A stretch of 34,751 nt of DNA from Halapricum sp. CBA1109 (GTDB taxonomy: Archaea; Halobacteriota; Halobacteria; Halobacteriales; Haloarculaceae), in the NCBI RefSeq assembly GCF_009741825.1, contig NZ_WPCA01000010.1:1-34751 (forward strand), in the 5' to 3' direction. Shown here one piece after another: positions 13,521 to 20,815 of this stretch (its first letter is position 1; every line of letters begins with the position of its first letter). Position numbers and translations under genes: made by a program. The notes beneath the pieces were generated by a model. The model ran no database searches, was not told the origin of the DNA, and saw only the letters and a list, made by a program, of their open reading frames with translations.

Positions 13521-13557
13521 ACGAGCGGACTACTGTAGGTACAGATGTCTCACAACA

Positions 13558-14775
13558 GTGAGGGCACGTCGGGATCCCCGGCGGATCGAGTTCTTCCAGG
13601 GCACACTCGATAGCACCTCTGAAATCGACGAGGCACGAATTTTCGACACGACGTTGCGTGACGGCGAGCAGTCGCCGGGCACGTCGTTCAGTTACGAGGA
13701 CAAACGGGAGATAGCGGCGGTACTCGACGAGATGGGCACTCACGTCATCGAGGCGGGGTTCCCGGTCAACTCCGACGCGGAGTTCGAGGCCGTCCGCGAC
13801 ATCGCCGACTCGACGTCCTCGACGGTCTGTGGGCTCGCCCGCGTCGTCGAGGAGGACGTCGAGGCCGCACTGGAGAGCGGCGTCGAACTGGTCCACGTGT
13901 TCGTCTCGACCAGCGACGTCCAACTCCAAGACTCGATGCACGCCACCCGCCAAGACGCACTCGACCGCGCGGTCGAGTCCGTCGAACGGGTCAAGGCGGC
14001 GGGCGTCGAGTGTATGTTCTCGCCGATGGACGCCACCCGGACCGAGGAGGCGTTCCTGATCGACGTGGTCGAAGCCGTCAGCGACGCAGGCACAGACTGG
14101 ATCAACATCCCGGATACGACGGGCGTTGCGACCCCCGGTCGATTCCAGAAACTGGTCTCGAACGTGGTCGCACATACGGACGCTCGCGTCGACGTCCACA
14201 CCCACGACGACTTCGGGCTGGCGGCCGCGAACGCCCTCTCGGGCTACGAGGCCGGCGCGGCCCAGAGCCAGGTGTCGGTCAACGGCATCGGCGAGCGGGC
14301 GGGCAACGCCGCCTACGAGGAAGTCGTGATGGCGTGTGAGTCGCTGTACGACGTCGACACCGGGATCGACACGACGCAGATCACGGAGTTATCGCGGCTC
14401 GTCGCCGAGAAGAGCGGAATGGACGTTCCCGGCAACAAACCGGTGGTCGGCCAGAACGCCTTCTCCCACGAGAGCGGCATCCACGCCGCCGGTGTCATCG
14501 AGAACTCCGACACCTTCGAACCGGGCGTGATGACCCCCGAGATGGTCGGGGCCTCCCGCCAGTTGGTCCTCGGCAAGCACACCGGGACCCACTCCGTCCG
14601 GGAGCGACTCCTTGACGCGGGCTACGACCCGACCGACGAGGAGGTCCGACAGGTGACCCGCCGCGTCAAAGACTACGGCGCGGAGAAGCGGCAGGTCACG
14701 ATGGAGATTCTCGAGCGGTTCGCCAACGAAGTCGGCGTTGACCGCACCGATGCTCACGAGGAGGCCAGTGCCTGA
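13558..14775 (+). CDS. leuA: 2-isopropylmalate synthase, short form
   Basis: About 405 residues, a TIM-barrel DRE-metallolyase that condenses acetyl-CoA with 2-oxoisovalerate in leucine synthesis. Family motifs: IFDTTLRDGEQSPGTSFS (metal and substrate site), IEAGFPVNSDAEFEAV, DVHTHDDFGLAAANAL (metal His pair) and GQNAFSHESGIHAAGV. It ends shortly after the helical subdomain and lacks the ~120-residue LeuA allosteric domain of longer enzymes, so leucine feedback may not act on this form. The start is uncertain. GTG 13558 is in frame. ATG 13545 fits the TATA box better, and removing one C from the run at 13576-13579 would fuse it as MSHNSEGTSGSRRIEFFQG. A homologous citramalate-synthase role cannot be excluded. 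Confidence 0.9.
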   Translation: MRARRDPRRIEFFQGTLDSTSEIDEARIFDTTLRDGEQSPGTSFSYEDKREIAAVLDEMGTHVIEAGFPVNSDAEFEAVRDIADSTSSTVCGLARVVEEDVEAALESGVELVHVFVSTSDVQLQDSMHATRQDALDRAVESVERVKAAGVECMFSPMDATRTEEAFLIDVVEAVSDAGTDWINIPDTTGVATPGRFQKLVSNVVAHTDARVDVHTHDDFGLAAANALSGYEAGAAQSQVSVNGIGERAGNAAYEEVVMACESLYDVDTGIDTTQITELSRLVAEKSGMDVPGNKPVVGQNAFSHESGIHAAGVIENSDTFEPGVMTPEMVGASRQLVLGKHTGTHSVRERLLDAGYDPTDEEVRQVTRRVKDYGAEKRQVTMEILERFANEVGVDRTDAHEEASA

Positions 14776-14840: not shown

Positions 14841-14848
14841 CTTATGTA
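14841..14848 (+). promoter_or_regulatory. TATA-like box before the ilvB leader
   Basis: CTTATGTA lies 26-33 bases before the leader ATG at 14874 but more than 200 bases before ilvB. If used, it gives a nearly leaderless start for the leader peptide and a long leader RNA before ilvB. Confidence 0.45.
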
Positions 14849-14873
14849 CGGGGCCGTCCAGAGATTCGTACTG

Positions 14874-14957
14874 ATGACACGGACCGCTGGCGCTCGGGAA
14901 CGCCCCGCCGACAGCGGTTCCCTTCTCCTCCGCAGCGGTATTGTAGGGGCTCTATAG
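14874..14957 (+). CDS. Candidate leader peptide of the ilvB operon (27 residues)
   Basis: A 28-codon ORF, ATG to TAG, in the 282-base gap between leuA and ilvB. Its end reads SLLLRSGIVGAL-stop: six of the last eleven residues are Leu, Ile or Val, the end products of the operon. Several use codons that look rare in this GC-rich genome (CTT, ATT, GTA, CTA). The stop codon lies inside a GC-rich hairpin (14945-14962), and upstream segments can form competing stems. This is the layout of bacterial leu/ilv attenuators. It could be a chance ORF in AT-richer spacer; no such archaeal attenuator is established to my knowledge. Confidence 0.4.
   Translation: MTRTAGARERPADSGSLLLRSGIVGAL
14883..14939 (+). 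promoter_or_regulatory. Mutually exclusive RNA stems in the ilvB leader
   Basis: ACCGCTG (14883-14889) can pair with either of two identical CAGCGGT copies (14912-14918 or 14933-14939). GGGAAC (14896-14901) pairs with GTTCCC (14917-14922), which excludes the first of those options but can nest within the second. Alternative pairings of this kind are what an attenuator needs; energies were not computed. Confidence 0.4.
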
Positions 14958-14962
14958 CCCCT
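14945..14962 (+). promoter_or_regulatory. GC-rich hairpin over the leader stop codon
   Basis: A perfect 7-bp stem AGGGGCT / AGCCCCT with a four-base loop (CTAT). The leader TAG falls at 14955-14957, so a ribosome finishing the leader would cover or melt the stem. A short T run (TTTT) follows about ten bases later, so terminator function is possible but weak. Confidence 0.5.
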
Positions 14963-15057
14963 CACACCTGCATTTTCGACTCGGCCGGTACTGCACTCGA
15001 CCAGCGACAGACACCAGCGACAATGACGCCACCAACACAACACACACGTGATCGAAC

Positions 15058-16820
15058 ATGAGCGAACGCGCATCAATATCCAAGCCAGCGGACGAGACTG
15101 ACGACGAACGGGACGACGGGATGGAGACCGTCGAGACGGGCGCACAGTCGGTGATCGCGGCCCTCGAACAGGCCGGCGTCGACCACGCCTTCGGCGTGCA
15201 GGGCGGGGCGATTATGCCCGTCTACGACGCGCTGTACGACTCCTCGATCACCCACGTCACGATGGCCCACGAGCAGGGCGCGGCCCACGCGGCCGACGCC
15301 TACGGCATCGTCACCGGGGACCCCGGACTGGCGATGGCCACCTCCGGGCCGGGCGCGACGAACCTCGTCACCGGCCTCGCCGACGCGGCGATGGATTCGG
15401 ACCCGATCATCGCTCTCACGGGGCAGGTGCCGACGGAGTTCGTCGGCAACGACGCCTTCCAGGAGGTCGACACCACCGGCATCACGATGCCGGTCACCAA
15501 GGAGAACTACTTCGCCGACCACTCGGACACGGTGGGCGACGACGTCAGCGAGGCGTTCGCGCTGGCCAACGAAGGCCGGCAGGGGCCGACGCTGGTCGAC
15601 CTCCCGAAGGACGTCACGCAGGGCGACACCGAGCAGTGGCCGGGCAAGCCCGAGACGCCGTCGACCCATCAGGCGCCGGTCGAGGCCGAGGAGACGGCCG
15701 TCGAGCCGCCGCGGAGGCGCTCCAGCGCGCCGAGCGACCGGTGATTCTCGCCGGCGGCGGCGTGATCAAAAGCGAGGCCTGCGACGAACTCCACAGCTTC
15801 GCCACGGAGTACGAAATCCCCGTCATCACGACGATGCCGGGGCTCGGAAGCTTCCCCGAGACCGAGGACTTGGCGCTCGGGATGGCCGGGATGCACGGCA
15901 CCGGCGCGGCGAATATGGCCATCACGAACTGTGATGCGCTGGTCGGCGTCGGGACCCGCTTCGACGACCGCCTGACCGGCGGCGTCGACAGCTTCGCGCC
16001 GGACGCGGACATCATCCACGTCGAAATAGACCCCGCCGAGATATCCAAGAACATCGAGGCGGACTTCCCGCTGATCGGCGACGCCGAACGCGTCCTCGAA
16101 CAGCTAGACGACACGCTGACGCGGCCGCCCGAGGCCGACGCGTGGCGCGAACAGTGTGCCACGTGGGAAGAGGAGTATCCGCTGGCCTACGAGATGCCCG
16201 ACGACGAACCGCTCAAGCCCCAGTACGTCGTCGAGACGTTCGACGAGATGGCCGACGACGACGCCATCGTCACGACCGGTGTCGGCCAACACCAGATGTG
16301 GGCCGCCCAGTTCTGGACGTACACCCACCCACGCACGTGGGTCTCCAGCAACGGGCTGGGGACGATGGGGTACGGCGTCCCCTCGGCCATCGGCGCGAAA
16401 CTCGGCGCGCCCGACACCGAAGTCGTCTGTTTCGACGGCGACGGTTCCTTCTTGATGACGGTCCAGGAGCTGTCGGTCGCGGTGCGGGAGAACCTCGACA
16501 TCACCTACGTCGTCCTCAACAACGAGGCGGTCGGGATGGTCCGCCAGTGGCAGGACGGCTTCTACGAGGGCCGTCGGATGGCAAGCGAGTACCCGTGGAT
16601 CCCCGAGTTCGACAAACTGGCCGAGGCCTTCGGCGCTCGCGGCTTCCGCTTGGAGGACCCCGAGAACGTCCAAGAGACCATCGAAGCGGCCCGCGAGTAC
16701 GACGGTCCCGCGGTGATCGACGCGATAATCGACCCCGGCGAGAACGTCTACCCGATGGTCCCCAGCGGCGGGGACAACGGGCAGTTCGCGCTGTCGGAAG
16801 CCCATCTGGAGATGCTCTAA
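15058..16820 (+). CDS. ilvB: Acetolactate synthase large subunit, frameshifted
   Basis: One gene of about 587 residues in two frames. It makes acetolactate or acetohydroxybutyrate from pyruvate using thiamine diphosphate (TPP) and FAD, the first common step of valine and isoleucine synthesis. The N-terminal Pyr domain contains GVQGGAIMPVYDAL and HEQGAAHAADAY (catalytic Glu). The central domain begins ERPVILAGGGVIKS. The C-terminal TPP domain has GDGSFLMTVQELSVA and VVLNNEAVGMVRQWQ. Frame 1 ends at 15744 and the second frame takes over at about 15706, where GAG CCGCCG should read GAG GCCGCC. Inserting one G restores EAAAEALQRAERP. A lost base in the sequence is more likely than a dead gene, given the intact partner ilvN. 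Confidence 0.93.
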
Positions 16821-16822
16821 CG

Positions 16823-17437
16823 ATGACTGGCAAACTACCCGGCCCGGCCCCGGACGAGCGGATGCGTCCGCAGGGACGGCGCAACTCCCAAGGTATCCGT
16901 ATCGACCCCGAAGTGGAAGCGACACACGAGCCCCGTCTGGCGGTGTTGTCGGCGCTGGTCAAACACGAACCCGGCGTCCTCTCGGAGGTGTCGGGGCTGT
17001 TCAGCCGCCGGCAGTTCAACATCGAGAGCCTGACTGTCGGCCCCTCGAAAGACGAGGACGTCGCGCGGATGACCATCGTCATCGAGGAGCCCGAACCCGG
17101 CGTCCAGCAGGCCAAAAAACAGCTGAAGAAGCTCATCTCGGTCATCGAGGTCGAGGAGCTAGAGCCGGAGGCGATGCGGCGGGAACTGGCGCTGCTGAAG
17201 GTCGCCGGCGAGAAGCCCGACGACATCCAGTCGGTCGCGGAGATGTACGGCGGACAGGCCGTCGACGCCTCCCGGGACGCGGTCACCGTCGAGATAACGG
17301 GGAGCAAACAGAAGATAGACGCCGCCGTCGACGCCTTCGAGCAGTTCGAGGTGCTCGAAGTGGTCCGGACGGGCGCGGCGGCGCTCGAACGCGGGTCGAT
17401 GACGATGGACCCGTCGGCAATGGAAAGCGATAATTGA
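16823..17437 (+). CDS. ilvN: Acetolactate synthase small (regulatory) subunit
   Basis: A 204-residue ACT-domain protein. The ACT domain begins near residue 35 (EPRLAVLSALVKHEPGVLSE) and contains the valine-site-like VSGLFSRRQFNIESLTVG. The C-terminal ALS_ss domain follows (MRRELALLKVAGE, then VTVEITGSKQKIDAAVDAFE). It binds the large subunit, raises its activity and confers valine feedback inhibition in bacteria. The ATG at 16823 lies two bases after the ilvB stop. The first ~30 residues are a basic, disordered leader typical of haloarchaeal IlvN. Confidence 0.95.
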   Translation: MTGKLPGPAPDERMRPQGRRNSQGIRIDPEVEATHEPRLAVLSALVKHEPGVLSEVSGLFSRRQFNIESLTVGPSKDEDVARMTIVIEEPEPGVQQAKKQLKKLISVIEVEELEPEAMRRELALLKVAGEKPDDIQSVAEMYGGQAVDASRDAVTVEITGSKQKIDAAVDAFEQFEVLEVVRTGAAALERGSMTMDPSAMESDN

Positions 17438-17458: not shown

Positions 17459-18472
17459 ATGAGTGACGAATTCACGACGACAGTCTACTACGACGACGAT
17501 GCCGACGAATCGGTACTGGCAGACCGCACGGTAGCCGTCTTGGGCTACGGGAGTCAGGGCCACGCCCACGCGCAGAACCTCGCGGACAGCGGGGTCGACG
17601 TGGTCGTCGGCCTGCGCGAGGGGTCGTCCTCGCGGGAGGAAGCCCGGACCGACGGGCTGGAAGTCGCGACGCCCGTCGAGGCCGCCGCACAGGCCGACAC
17701 CGTCTCCGTGCTGGTGCCCGACACGGTCCAGCCGGATGTCTACGAGGCCATCGCCGACGAGATGGAGGCGGGCGACACGCTCCAGTTCGCCCACGGGTTC
17801 AACATCCACTACGGTCAAATCGAACCCGACCCCGAGGTCAACGTCACGATGGTCGCGCCCAAGTCACCGGGTCATCTGGTCCGACGGACCTACAAGCGCG
17901 GCGAGGGGACGCCCGGTCTCATCGCCGTCTACCAGGACCCCTCCGGCGAGGCCAAAGACCAGGCGCTGGCCTACGCGAAGGCCATCGGCTGTACCCGCGC
18001 AGGCGTCATCGAGACATCTTTCGCCGAGGAGACCGAGACGGACCTCTTCGGCGAGCAGGCGGTCCTCTGTGGCGGCGTCACGGAACTGATGAAACAGGGC
18101 TACGAGACGCTGGTCGACGCGGGCTACTCCCCGGAGATGGCCTACTTCGAGTGTCTCAACGAGATGAAGCTGATTGTCGACCTCATCTACGAGGGTGGCC
18201 TGATGGAGATGTGGGATTCGGTTTCGGACACCGCCGAGTACGGCGGGCTGACCCGCGGGAAGATGGTTGTCGACGACGACGCCCGCGAGAACATGGAGGA
18301 GGTCCTCCGGCAGGTCCAGGACGGCGAGTTCGCCAAGGAGTGGATCAGCGAGAACCAGACGAACCGACCGAGCTACAAACAACTGCGGCAGGCCGAACAG
18401 GAACACGACGCCGAAGTCGTCGGCGAGCGCCTGCGTGACCTGTTCGCCTGGGACGAGCAAGCGAGCGAGTAA
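17459..18472 (+). CDS. ilvC: Ketol-acid reductoisomerase
   Basis: A 337-residue class I KARI, of normal length. The Rossmann motif [15 protein letters not shown] binds the nicotinamide cofactor, and the following loop [11 protein letters not shown] carries the Ser residues usual for NADPH preference. The knotted C-terminal domain holds the metal ligands in [18 protein letters not shown] and [17 protein letters not shown]. It isomerises and reduces acetolactate to dihydroxyisovalerate. It is 21 bases downstream of ilvN in the same operon. Confidence 0.97.
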
Positions 18473-18475
18473 CAT

Positions 18476-18735
18476 ATGACAGACAACACGATGGACGATG
18501 TCGACCACACCAACCCCTACACCGGCGGTGCCTTCGGCGACGCCGTGGCTTTCCGCCGCGGTGCCGTCGCGGCCGACGGCGGGGAGCGGTCCAACGGAGC
18601 GCCGTCGACCGGTCCGACGGTGGCGACAGCGACACGGACAGCACACAGACGATGCGTGACGTTTCACACACCGCCCCGGGCGGCCCACAGCGGGCCTTCG
18701 AGCGGGGCACCGAAGGACGGACTGACACAGTATGA
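18476..18735 (+). CDS. Small uncharacterised protein of the ilv-leu operon, frameshifted
   Basis: It starts three bases after ilvC (MTDNTMDDVDHTNPYTGGAF, then GAVAADGGERSNGA) and after a one-base frame change near 18597-18606 continues as VDRSDGGDSDTDSTQTMRDV, then SHTAPGGPQRAFERGTEGRT, ending in a TGA that overlaps the leuC ATG. Both halves have the acidic haloarchaeal composition only in these frames. As with the other broken genes here, one base seems to be missing. The product would be about 86 residues with no recognised fold. Its fixed place between ilvC and leuC suggests an accessory role, possibly regulatory, but I cannot name one. Confidence 0.55.
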
Positions 18736-20198
18736 GCGAAGGAACTCTGTACGACAAGGTATGGGACAAGCACAAGGTAACCGAACTGCCGAACGGACAG
18801 GATCAGCTGTTCATCGGCCTGCATCTGGTCCACGAGGTGACCAGCCCCCAAGCGTTCGCGATGCTCCGCGAGCGGGATATCGAAGTTGCCTACCCCGAGC
18901 GGACGTTCGCGACCACCGACCACATCGTCCCAACACAGGAGGAAAAACGCAAGCGGCCCTTAGAGGACGAGAAGAGCGAGGAGATGCTGGACGCCCTGAC
19001 GACCAACACGGGCGACAACGGCATCACCTTCTTCGACTTCGAGTCGGGCAAGCAGGGTATCACCCACGTCGTCGCCCCCGAACTGGGCCTCTCCCAGCCG
19101 GGGATGACGGTCGCCTGTGGTGACTCCCACACCGCCACCCACGGCGCGTTCGGCTCTATCGGCGTCGGCGTCGGGACCTCCCAGATCCGGGACATCCTCG
19201 CCACCGGTTGCATCGCCGCCGAGAAACAGCAGGTCCGTCGCATCAACGTCGAGGGTAGCCTCGGCGAGGGCGTCTTCGCCAAGGACATCATCCTGAAGAT
19301 CATCCAGGAACTGGGCGTCGACGGCGGCGTCGGCCACGTCTACGAGTACGGCGGTCCCGCCATCGAGGAACTGGACATGGAGGGCCGACTGGCCATCTGT
19401 AATATGTCCATCGAGGGCGGCGCCCGCGCGGGGTACATCAACCCCGATCAGACGACCTACGACTACTTGGAGGGTCGAGAGTACGTCCCCGAGGGCGAGG
19501 CGTTCGAGGAACTCAAGTCCTACTGGGGGTCGGTCGCGTCCGACGAGGACGCCGTCTACGACGACGAGGTCACTATCGACGTCGACGACATCGACCCGCT
19601 GGTCACGTGGGGCATCAACCCCGGGCAGGTCGTTGAGATATCCCAGCCCGTTCCCTCGCCCGACGACTTCGACGCTCGGACCGATCGCGAGGCCGCCGAG
19701 CAGGCCCTCGAACACATGGACATCGAGGCCGGGCAGTCGATGCTGGGCTACGACGTCGACGTCGCCTTCCTCGGTACCTGCACGAACGGCCGCGTGACGG
19801 ACTTCGCCCGCGCCGCCGAGATTCTGGAGGGCAACACCGTCGACGACGACGTGCGAGCGCTCGCGGTCCCCGGATCGGAGACGGTCCGCGCCGAGTGTGA
19901 GGCCCGCGGCATCGACGAGACGTTCATCGAGGCCGGCTTCCAGTGGCGCCGCGCCGGGTGCTCGATGTGTCTGGCGATGAACGAGGACTCGCTGGAGGGC
20001 GACGAGGTCTGTGCCTCCTCGTCCAACCGGAACTTCATCGGTCGACAGGGATCCAAGGAGGGCCGGACGGTCCTGATGAGTCCCGTGATGGTCGCCGCGG
20101 CGGCCGTCGAGGGCGAGGTCACGGACGTCCGCCGGTTCTACGACGACGACCCGGCCGACGCTCTGACCGCCGACGACGTCTCGGAGGTGGCCGACTGA
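18732..20198 (+). CDS. leuC: 3-isopropylmalate dehydratase large subunit
   Basis: A 488-residue aconitase-superfamily protein. It carries the [4Fe-4S] cluster ligands: Cys in FLGTCTNGRVTDF and the Cys pair in RRAGCSMCLAMN. The N-terminal substrate region has DHIVPTQ, and VACGDSHTATHGAFGSIGVG is conserved. With LeuD it isomerises 2-isopropylmalate to 3-isopropylmalate. Its ATG overlaps the stop of the small upstream gene (ATGA) and its TGA overlaps the leuD start, so translation is chained through the operon. Confidence 0.96.
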   Translation: MSEGTLYDKVWDKHKVTELPNGQDQLFIGLHLVHEVTSPQAFAMLRERDIEVAYPERTFATTDHIVPTQEEKRKRPLEDEKSEEMLDALTTNTGDNGITFFDFESGKQGITHVVAPELGLSQPGMTVACGDSHTATHGAFGSIGVGVGTSQIRDILATGCIAAEKQQVRRINVEGSLGEGVFAKDIILKIIQELGVDGGVGHVYEYGGPAIEELDMEGRLAICNMSIEGGARAGYINPDQTTYDYLEGREYVPEGEAFEELKSYWGSVASDEDAVYDDEVTIDVDDIDPLVTWGINPGQVVEISQPVPSPDDFDARTDREAAEQALEHMDIEAGQSMLGYDVDVAFLGTCTNGRVTDFARAAEILEGNTVDDDVRALAVPGSETVRAECEARGIDETFIEAGFQWRRAGCSMCLAMNEDSLEGDEVCASSSNRNFIGRQGSKEGRTVLMSPVMVAAAAVEGEVTDVRRFYDDDPADALTADDVSEVAD

Positions 20199-20815
20199 TG
20201 CCCGCCGTCGACCCCGAAGCCGACGACAACCACATCACCGAGGTCGGTGGCACCGGCGTCCCCATCCCGGGCGACGACATCGACACCGACCAGATCCTGC
20301 CGGCGCGGTTCATGAAGGAGGTCACCTTCGACAACATGGCGGAGTACCTCTTCTACGACGCCCGGCGGGACGACGACGACGAACTCAACGACCACCCGCT
20401 CAACCGCTTCGAGGGCGCGAACATCGCCGTCGTCAACACGAACTTCGGCTGTGGCTCCTCCCGCGAGCACGCTCCCCAAGCGTTGATGCGCTGGGGTATC
20501 GACGGGATGATCGGTGAGTCCTACGCGGAGATATTCGCGGACAACTGCAAGTCGCTGGGCATCCCCGCGGCGACGACCGACCACGAGACCGTCACCGAGA
20601 TCCAGCAGTGGATCGAGGACAACCCCGATGGGAACATCGACATCGACGTCGAGGACGAGACGGTCACCTACGGCGACACCACCGTCGACGTCGACATCGA
20701 CGACGCGATGCAGGAAGCGCTGGTCGAGGGCATCTGGGACACGACCGCGCTGATGTACTCCAACATGAGCAAGGTCGAGCAGACCGTCGCCGACCTGCCC
20801 TACGCCGACGACTAG
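20198..20815 (+). CDS. leuD: 3-isopropylmalate dehydratase small subunit
   Basis: A 205-residue swivel-domain partner of LeuC, with the family motifs DDIDTDQILPARFM near the N-terminus and NTNFGCGSSREHAPQALMRWG in the middle (substrate loop). The ATG overlaps the leuC stop (TGATG). The last ~60 residues are an Asp-rich extension (DIDVEDETVTYGDTTVDVDI) followed by a helical tail. leuB, which often follows leuD in haloarchaea, is not present downstream. The bases to 20931 hold only a short T run (CTTTTCC), possibly a terminator. Confidence 0.95.
   Translation: MPAVDPEADDNHITEVGGTGVPIPGDDIDTDQILPARFMKEVTFDNMAEYLFYDARRDDDDELNDHPLNRFEGANIAVVNTNFGCGSSREHAPQALMRWGIDGMIGESYAEIFADNCKSLGIPAATTDHETVTEIQQWIEDNPDGNIDIDVEDETVTYGDTTVDVDIDDAMQEALVEGIWDTTALMYSNMSKVEQTVADLPYADD

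Follow-up and report, generated by a model that had tools for sequence, protein, structure and literature searches.

Does the gap between a leuA-like gene and ilvB in a haloarchaeon encode a leader peptide through which branched-chain amino acid supply governs the genes that follow? The question is posed by a 34,751-nt stretch of Halapricum sp. CBA1109 (contig NZ_WPCA01000010.1; here termed the window), in which a short ORF lies between these two genes, with ilvN, ilvC, leuC and leuD following (Table 1). An earlier note, made from the letters of this DNA, had proposed that translation of the ORF senses leucine, isoleucine and valine, by way of an attenuator in which two repeat copies compete for one partner. 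Comparative data strongly support a branched-chain amino acid-sensing leader before ilvB, and do not support the detailed two-copy attenuator.

Table 1. Features of the leuA–ilvB region and the downstream genes in the window.
Feature	Position	Strand	Remarks
leuA-like gene	13549..14775	+	HMGL and HCS_D2 domains, without LeuA_dimer; start codon approximate
TATA-like box TTATGTA	14842..14848	+	TTTATTA in relatives
Leader ORF (uORF1), 27 codons and TAG, MTRTAGARERPADSGSLLLRSGIVGAL	14874..14957	+	Frame kept across relatives
P1 stem, 5' arm ACCGCTG	14883..14889	+	Compensatory changes within the window's family
P1 stem, 3' arm CAGCGGT, first copy	14912..14918	+	Compensatory changes within the window's family
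Second CAGCGGT copy	14933..14939	+	CGGCGGT or CGGCGCT in 4 of 5 congeners
Ile-Val codons ATT GTA, proposed stall site	14940..14945	+	Conserved residues
Stop-codon hairpin AGGGGCU-CUAU-AGCCCCU, 7 bp	14945..14962	+	Folding z; relatives
G-poor tract ending TTTTC, candidate termination zone	14963..14977	+	Composition in relatives
Second short ORF (uORF2), MTPPTQHTRDRT	15023..15061	+	Its stop and the start of ilvB share ATGA
ilvB, acetolactate synthase large subunit	15058..16820	+	Frame broken near 15690-15744 in the assembly
ilvN, acetolactate synthase small subunit	16823..17437	+	
ilvC, ketol-acid reductoisomerase	17459..18472	+	
leuC	18732..20198	+	
leuD	20198..20815	+	

The TATA-like box, the ATG at 14874, the 27-codon ORF, the ATT GTA pair and the stop-containing hairpin were all confirmed letter by letter in the window. 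The centre of the TATA-like box lies 29 nt from the leader ATG, and a spacing of about 29 nt recurs in relatives, a placement that suggests an almost leaderless start at this ATG. In the window, ilvB is read as two overlapping frames (15058-15744 and 15636-16820); as congeners have one open frame, the split is probably an assembly error of the draft genome. Small ORFs also occur between ilvC and leuC, at 18476-18735 (MTDNTMDDVDHTNPYTGGAFGDAVAF..., with a second frame containing ...MRDVSHTAPGGPQRAFERGTEG...), for which no Pfam match was found. A similar small protein is encoded after a second, real-looking copy of the IVGA leader in another genome (L114, genome G147).

Whether the leader is a coding sequence at all was a concern of the earlier note, since an ORF of 27 residues can arise by chance. 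This worry was dispelled by the recurrence of its terminal pattern and the conservation of its frame. The pattern ATYGTAGGGGCN{2,9}GCCCC occurs, about once per genome, in 196 of 293 genomes from the order, and its reversed control gave only a handful of matches. Upstream of ilvB, 195 haloarchaeal loci carry GTAGGGG, and in 189 of them the Ile-Val frame is opened by an ATG and runs uninterrupted to this core, compared with 3 and 20 for the other two frames. The upstream regions sampled come from congeners, from the window's family and from most of the order's remaining families, and a leader ORF with the tail I-V-G-A/V, or near to it, was present at 194 of about 205 haloarchaeal ilvB loci. The ORF, the Ile-Val codons, the stop hairpin and their position are thus kept in nearly all Halobacteria.

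A nonredundant set of 116 representatives (less than 75% identity over 140 nt; some species are present twice in the full set) was used to describe the leader further. Because an IVG-like tail and GTAGGG were the criteria for inclusion, these letters are partly fixed by selection; the 293-genome pattern count and the 195-locus frame test are independent of that choice. The residue preceding GTA is Ile in 115 of the 116, encoded by ATT in 87 and ATC in 28, and Val is GTA in every one with Gly (GGG) next, as the preselection would partly dictate. The residue after I-V-G is Ala (91), Val (24) or Pro (1), and the stop follows three or four codons past GTA in 112 leaders, with TAG, TAA and TGA all occurring, giving a tail consensus of I-V-G-A/V(-X)-stop. 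Across the 116, Leu, Ile and Val account for 57% of the final eight leader codons against 12% elsewhere in the leader. With its ATT GTA core, this short ORF ahead of the operon that makes Leu, Ile and Val is thus rich in codons for the regulating amino acids. The codons that had been thought rare are so, by usage over the 1652 codons of the window's five leu-ilv genes: ATT serves for 7% of Ile, GTA for 3% of Val, and CTT and CTA for 1% and 2% of Leu. Exceptions are few: Leu, Met, Phe or Ser stands in the place of Ile at loci L147, L143, L146 and L148, the stop has been lost in L117, and the core has decayed in L245 and L246. Two repeat copies with ATTGTAGGGGC (L198 and L199, genome G151) lie upstream of thioredoxin-like genes and have no leader ORF.

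Among other Halobacteriota, 20 ilvB loci were searched and none had the leader. Within the Halobacteria it is missing from two basal families (f9 and f11), in which ilvB adjoins a leuA encoding the allosteric LeuA_dimer domain. This adjacency was seen only in those leaderless families (genomes G009, G011, G025 and G037, against the rest). A wholesale loss of the LeuA_dimer domain in haloarchaea was considered and proved wrong: a single protein with this domain persists in most genomes, away from ilvB, and the leader-bearing genomes that were searched encode it at another locus. The relation between leader presence and LeuA_dimer context is a correlation only, because it may reflect a single evolutionary event.

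An analogous leader was found upstream of pheS. At about 20 of 30 haloarchaeal loci, pheS is preceded by a nearly leaderless, Phe-rich ORF, about 24-34 codons long and with a tail such as GFGFFF (21 are listed among regions L274-L300, one of which, L294, is weak), and in 16 of 20 the Phe codons give runs of at least five T. A conserved GTGGAC...GAAACC stretch follows this ORF and could form a stem. In E. coli, the pheST attenuator employs the Phe-rich pheM leader before pheS. The haloarchaeal pheS leader is likewise Phe-rich, belongs to a separate domain of life, and differs in that its Phe codons themselves form a U-rich tract; it looks like an independent archaeal counterpart. A 26-residue uORF before pheS had already been listed in a 2016 start-site study of H. 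volcanii, which also listed one before trpS and none before ilvB (PMC4983044). Consistent matching leaders were not found at hisG (His), trpS and trpE (Trp) or ileS (Ile) among 120 loci, where isolated ORFs with two Trp or three Ile codons were few; because these genes gave none that was consistent, the search does not simply find such ORFs everywhere.

The most regular structure in the leader is the hairpin at its end. In the window (14945-14962) it has a stability of about -12 kcal/mol, and the TAG at 14955-14957 falls within its loop and 3' arm. Across the 116 leaders the stop codon usually lies inside this GC hairpin, the mean folding z is -3.16, with 91% below -2, and the median stability is -12.7 kcal/mol. 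As the GGGG/CCCC part hardly varies, it is uninformative by itself; the fifth pair is C-G in 80 representatives, U-A in 8 and U-G in 9, and two divergent loci carry the variant stems GUAGGGCC/GGCCCUAC and GGGGUU/AACCCC. Beyond the hairpin, relatives have a tract of about 15 nt in which G does not exceed about 8% and U peaks at 63% at position +12, and the following 85 nt fold less than their shuffles (z +0.49). The absence of a strong T run, pointed out previously, was borne out: the window has only TTTTC at 14973-14977, and within 40 nt of the hairpin TTTT occurs in 23% of leaders and TTTTT in 4%. The arrangement is thus a stable hairpin with a short U-rich part some 12 nt away, which is not that of an intrinsic terminator, and a bacterial-type terminator with a U run was looked for, not found and rejected. 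About 28 nt past the hairpin, a G[TC]A[TC]CG element occurs in 64% of representatives against 3% for a control stretch (for example L029 and L173); it has diverged in the window.

Pairings further upstream are less uniform. Both the ACCGCTG and the two CAGCGGT copies of the earlier note are present, and the proposed competition between the copies was rejected, the second being variable within the genus and kept in one of five congeners. Stem P1, formed with the first copy, pairs leader codons 4-7 with 14-16, and four to five of its pairs show compensatory changes among 14 family sequences; it is, with moderate support from these comparisons, the sole leader-internal stem with covariation in the window's family. 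An antiterminator stem common to all lineages was not found.

These conserved elements can be joined into a scheme in which we infer leader translation, ribosome stalling, termination and the amino acid response. The leader would very probably act as an amino acid sensor read by the ribosome, and would probably control ilvBNC-leuCD through the position of that ribosome. Transcription would begin almost directly at this ORF's ATG, giving a nearly leaderless mRNA whose short ORF would be translated by the first ribosome. With charged Ile- and Val-tRNA plentiful (and Leu-tRNA, via the upstream part of the tail), it would reach the stop and leave, whereupon the stop hairpin would fold and operon expression would be cut. 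The cut would most likely come from termination by RNA polymerase in the adjacent downstream tract, poor in G and rich in pyrimidines, aided by aCPSF1/FttA, or at a haloarchaeal terminator of the hairpin type. With Ile or Val in short supply, the ribosome would stall on ATT GTA and cover the 5' arm GTAGGGG, so that the hairpin would be blocked and ilvB transcribed. On balance, we lean towards transcription termination as the output. Its plausibility draws on work in archaea: a hairpin studied in H. volcanii stopped 59% of transcripts in vivo, and a T5C tract stopped 95% (PMC7237163), aCPSF1 uses U tracts (PMC8716108), and in H. volcanii RNA polymerase is recovered together with ribosomal proteins (PMC8576121). 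Several points weigh against the scheme: the U-rich tract is short and displaced from the hairpin, unlike in bacterial terminators; a terminating ribosome would block the stop-containing hairpin until its release; no antiterminator stem is shared by all lineages; and the 2016 start-site study listed no uORF before ilvB.

The weakness of the U tract, and the difficulty of timing raised by a stop within the hairpin, make a translational output a serious rival, if a less likely one. Here transcription would be unregulated, and the leader ribosome would decide whether the start of uORF2 or ilvB is open, the ATGA overlap handing ribosomes on. It gains from the properties of uORF2: 82 of 96 representatives have the first ATG past the leader stop in the frame of the ATGA, the other frames having 10 and 4, and while the TGA of the ATGA is given anyway by ATGAGC, the frame bias of the uORF2 ATG is not so explained. 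The uORF2 products contain 1.9% Leu, Ile and Val in 1519 residues, and T makes up 2.8% of codon position 2 against 8.9% and 9.8% of positions 1 and 3; as the depletion sits at position 2, the bias acts at the level of amino acids. Leu, Ile and Val are likewise scarce in the N-terminal extension of IlvB (3.0%), perhaps as a simple effect of its acidic, disordered nature. Regulated opening of the start would also fit a complementarity that is strong in some lineages, where the segment right before ATT GTA could pair with a stretch before uORF2 (L116, L119, L125, L129, L153 and L163) or with the ilvB start (L077, L080 and L165), the partners changing in step between lineages. Against it, the long-range stem fails to reach significance among the window's congeners and has p<=0.01 in only 6% of the 116 representatives, hence it was rejected as a universal feature and kept as lineage-limited; moreover, the tract beside the hairpin is composed like a termination zone. 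Under transcription termination, uORF2 would retain a part: with almost no Leu, Ile or Val codons, it and the IlvB start would be translatable during shortage, and the ATGA coupling would pass ribosomes to ilvB.

A further alternative moves the sensor into the ribosome tunnel. TnaC, which senses tryptophan, is the model for an arrest peptide, and a C-terminal I-V-G-A/V could by analogy sense free Ile or Val rather than uncharged tRNA. That this sequence is unusually strict beside the stop, and that Ile is kept as an amino acid, by both ATT and ATC, although it lies outside the stem, would suit such a peptide. The Val-Gly letters are fixed by the hairpin arm as well, the outliers replace Ile with four different residues, and the rare codons and the upstream stretch rich in Leu, Ile and Val suit tRNA sensing; an arrest peptide is accordingly improbable. 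More improbable still is that the GTAGGGGC..GCCCC element is a protein binding site in DNA or RNA with the ORF incidental, for while it has a palindromic core of extreme nucleotide conservation, the frame-specific ATG, the three kinds of in-frame stop, the enrichment of Leu, Ile and Val beyond the core and the Phe leader at pheS all speak against it.

As a ribosome-read sensor, the leader looks, from its sequence, to work like a bacterial leader-peptide attenuator. It shares with the enterobacterial leuL, ilvL and ivbL a short ORF before the cognate operon, a hairpin at the leader end and codons for the pathway products near that end, some of them rare. It differs in being nearly leaderless and archaeal, in having its stall codons beside a stop-containing hairpin, in its Ile-Val core in place of a run of Leu codons, and in lacking a proper U run or a common antiterminator. 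The likeness to bacterial leu and ilv attenuators put forward in the earlier note therefore holds for the idea of sensing and fails for the exact logic, since the hairpin encloses the stop codon and has no proper U run after it, and without a U-run terminator the leader is not classed as a member of the leuL/ilvL type. The Corynebacterium ilvBNC operon is likewise preceded by a leader peptide uORF (PMC10272879, PMC11857589, PMC1262725), and one account describes the actinobacterial ilvB leader as a three-hairpin attenuator (PMC11857589). No homology to the latter was found, the haloarchaeal leader having no match in Rfam (at the gathering score, T-box and others), Pfam or NCBIfam. Translational attenuators of the ermC type resemble the proposal in that a ribosome on a uORF governs a downstream start, and differ in that the haloarchaeal signal would be amino acid supply and that a long-range stem masking the start occurs in some lineages only.

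A 2021 study stated that neither transcription attenuation nor antitermination was known in archaea (PMC8448881), and no earlier report of the haloarchaeal ilvB leader was found in the open literature, most subscription journals and bioRxiv lying outside the scope of the search. It seems likely that haloarchaea evolved their own ribosome-mediated attenuation at no fewer than two places, with Ile-Val at ilvB and Phe at pheS, and that at ilvB it replaced the adjacency of ilvB to an allosteric LeuA. Leader-peptide attenuation requires a ribosome close behind RNA polymerase, and, if the proposal is true, a classic bacterial switch would have evolved convergently on a eukaryote-like transcription and translation machinery.
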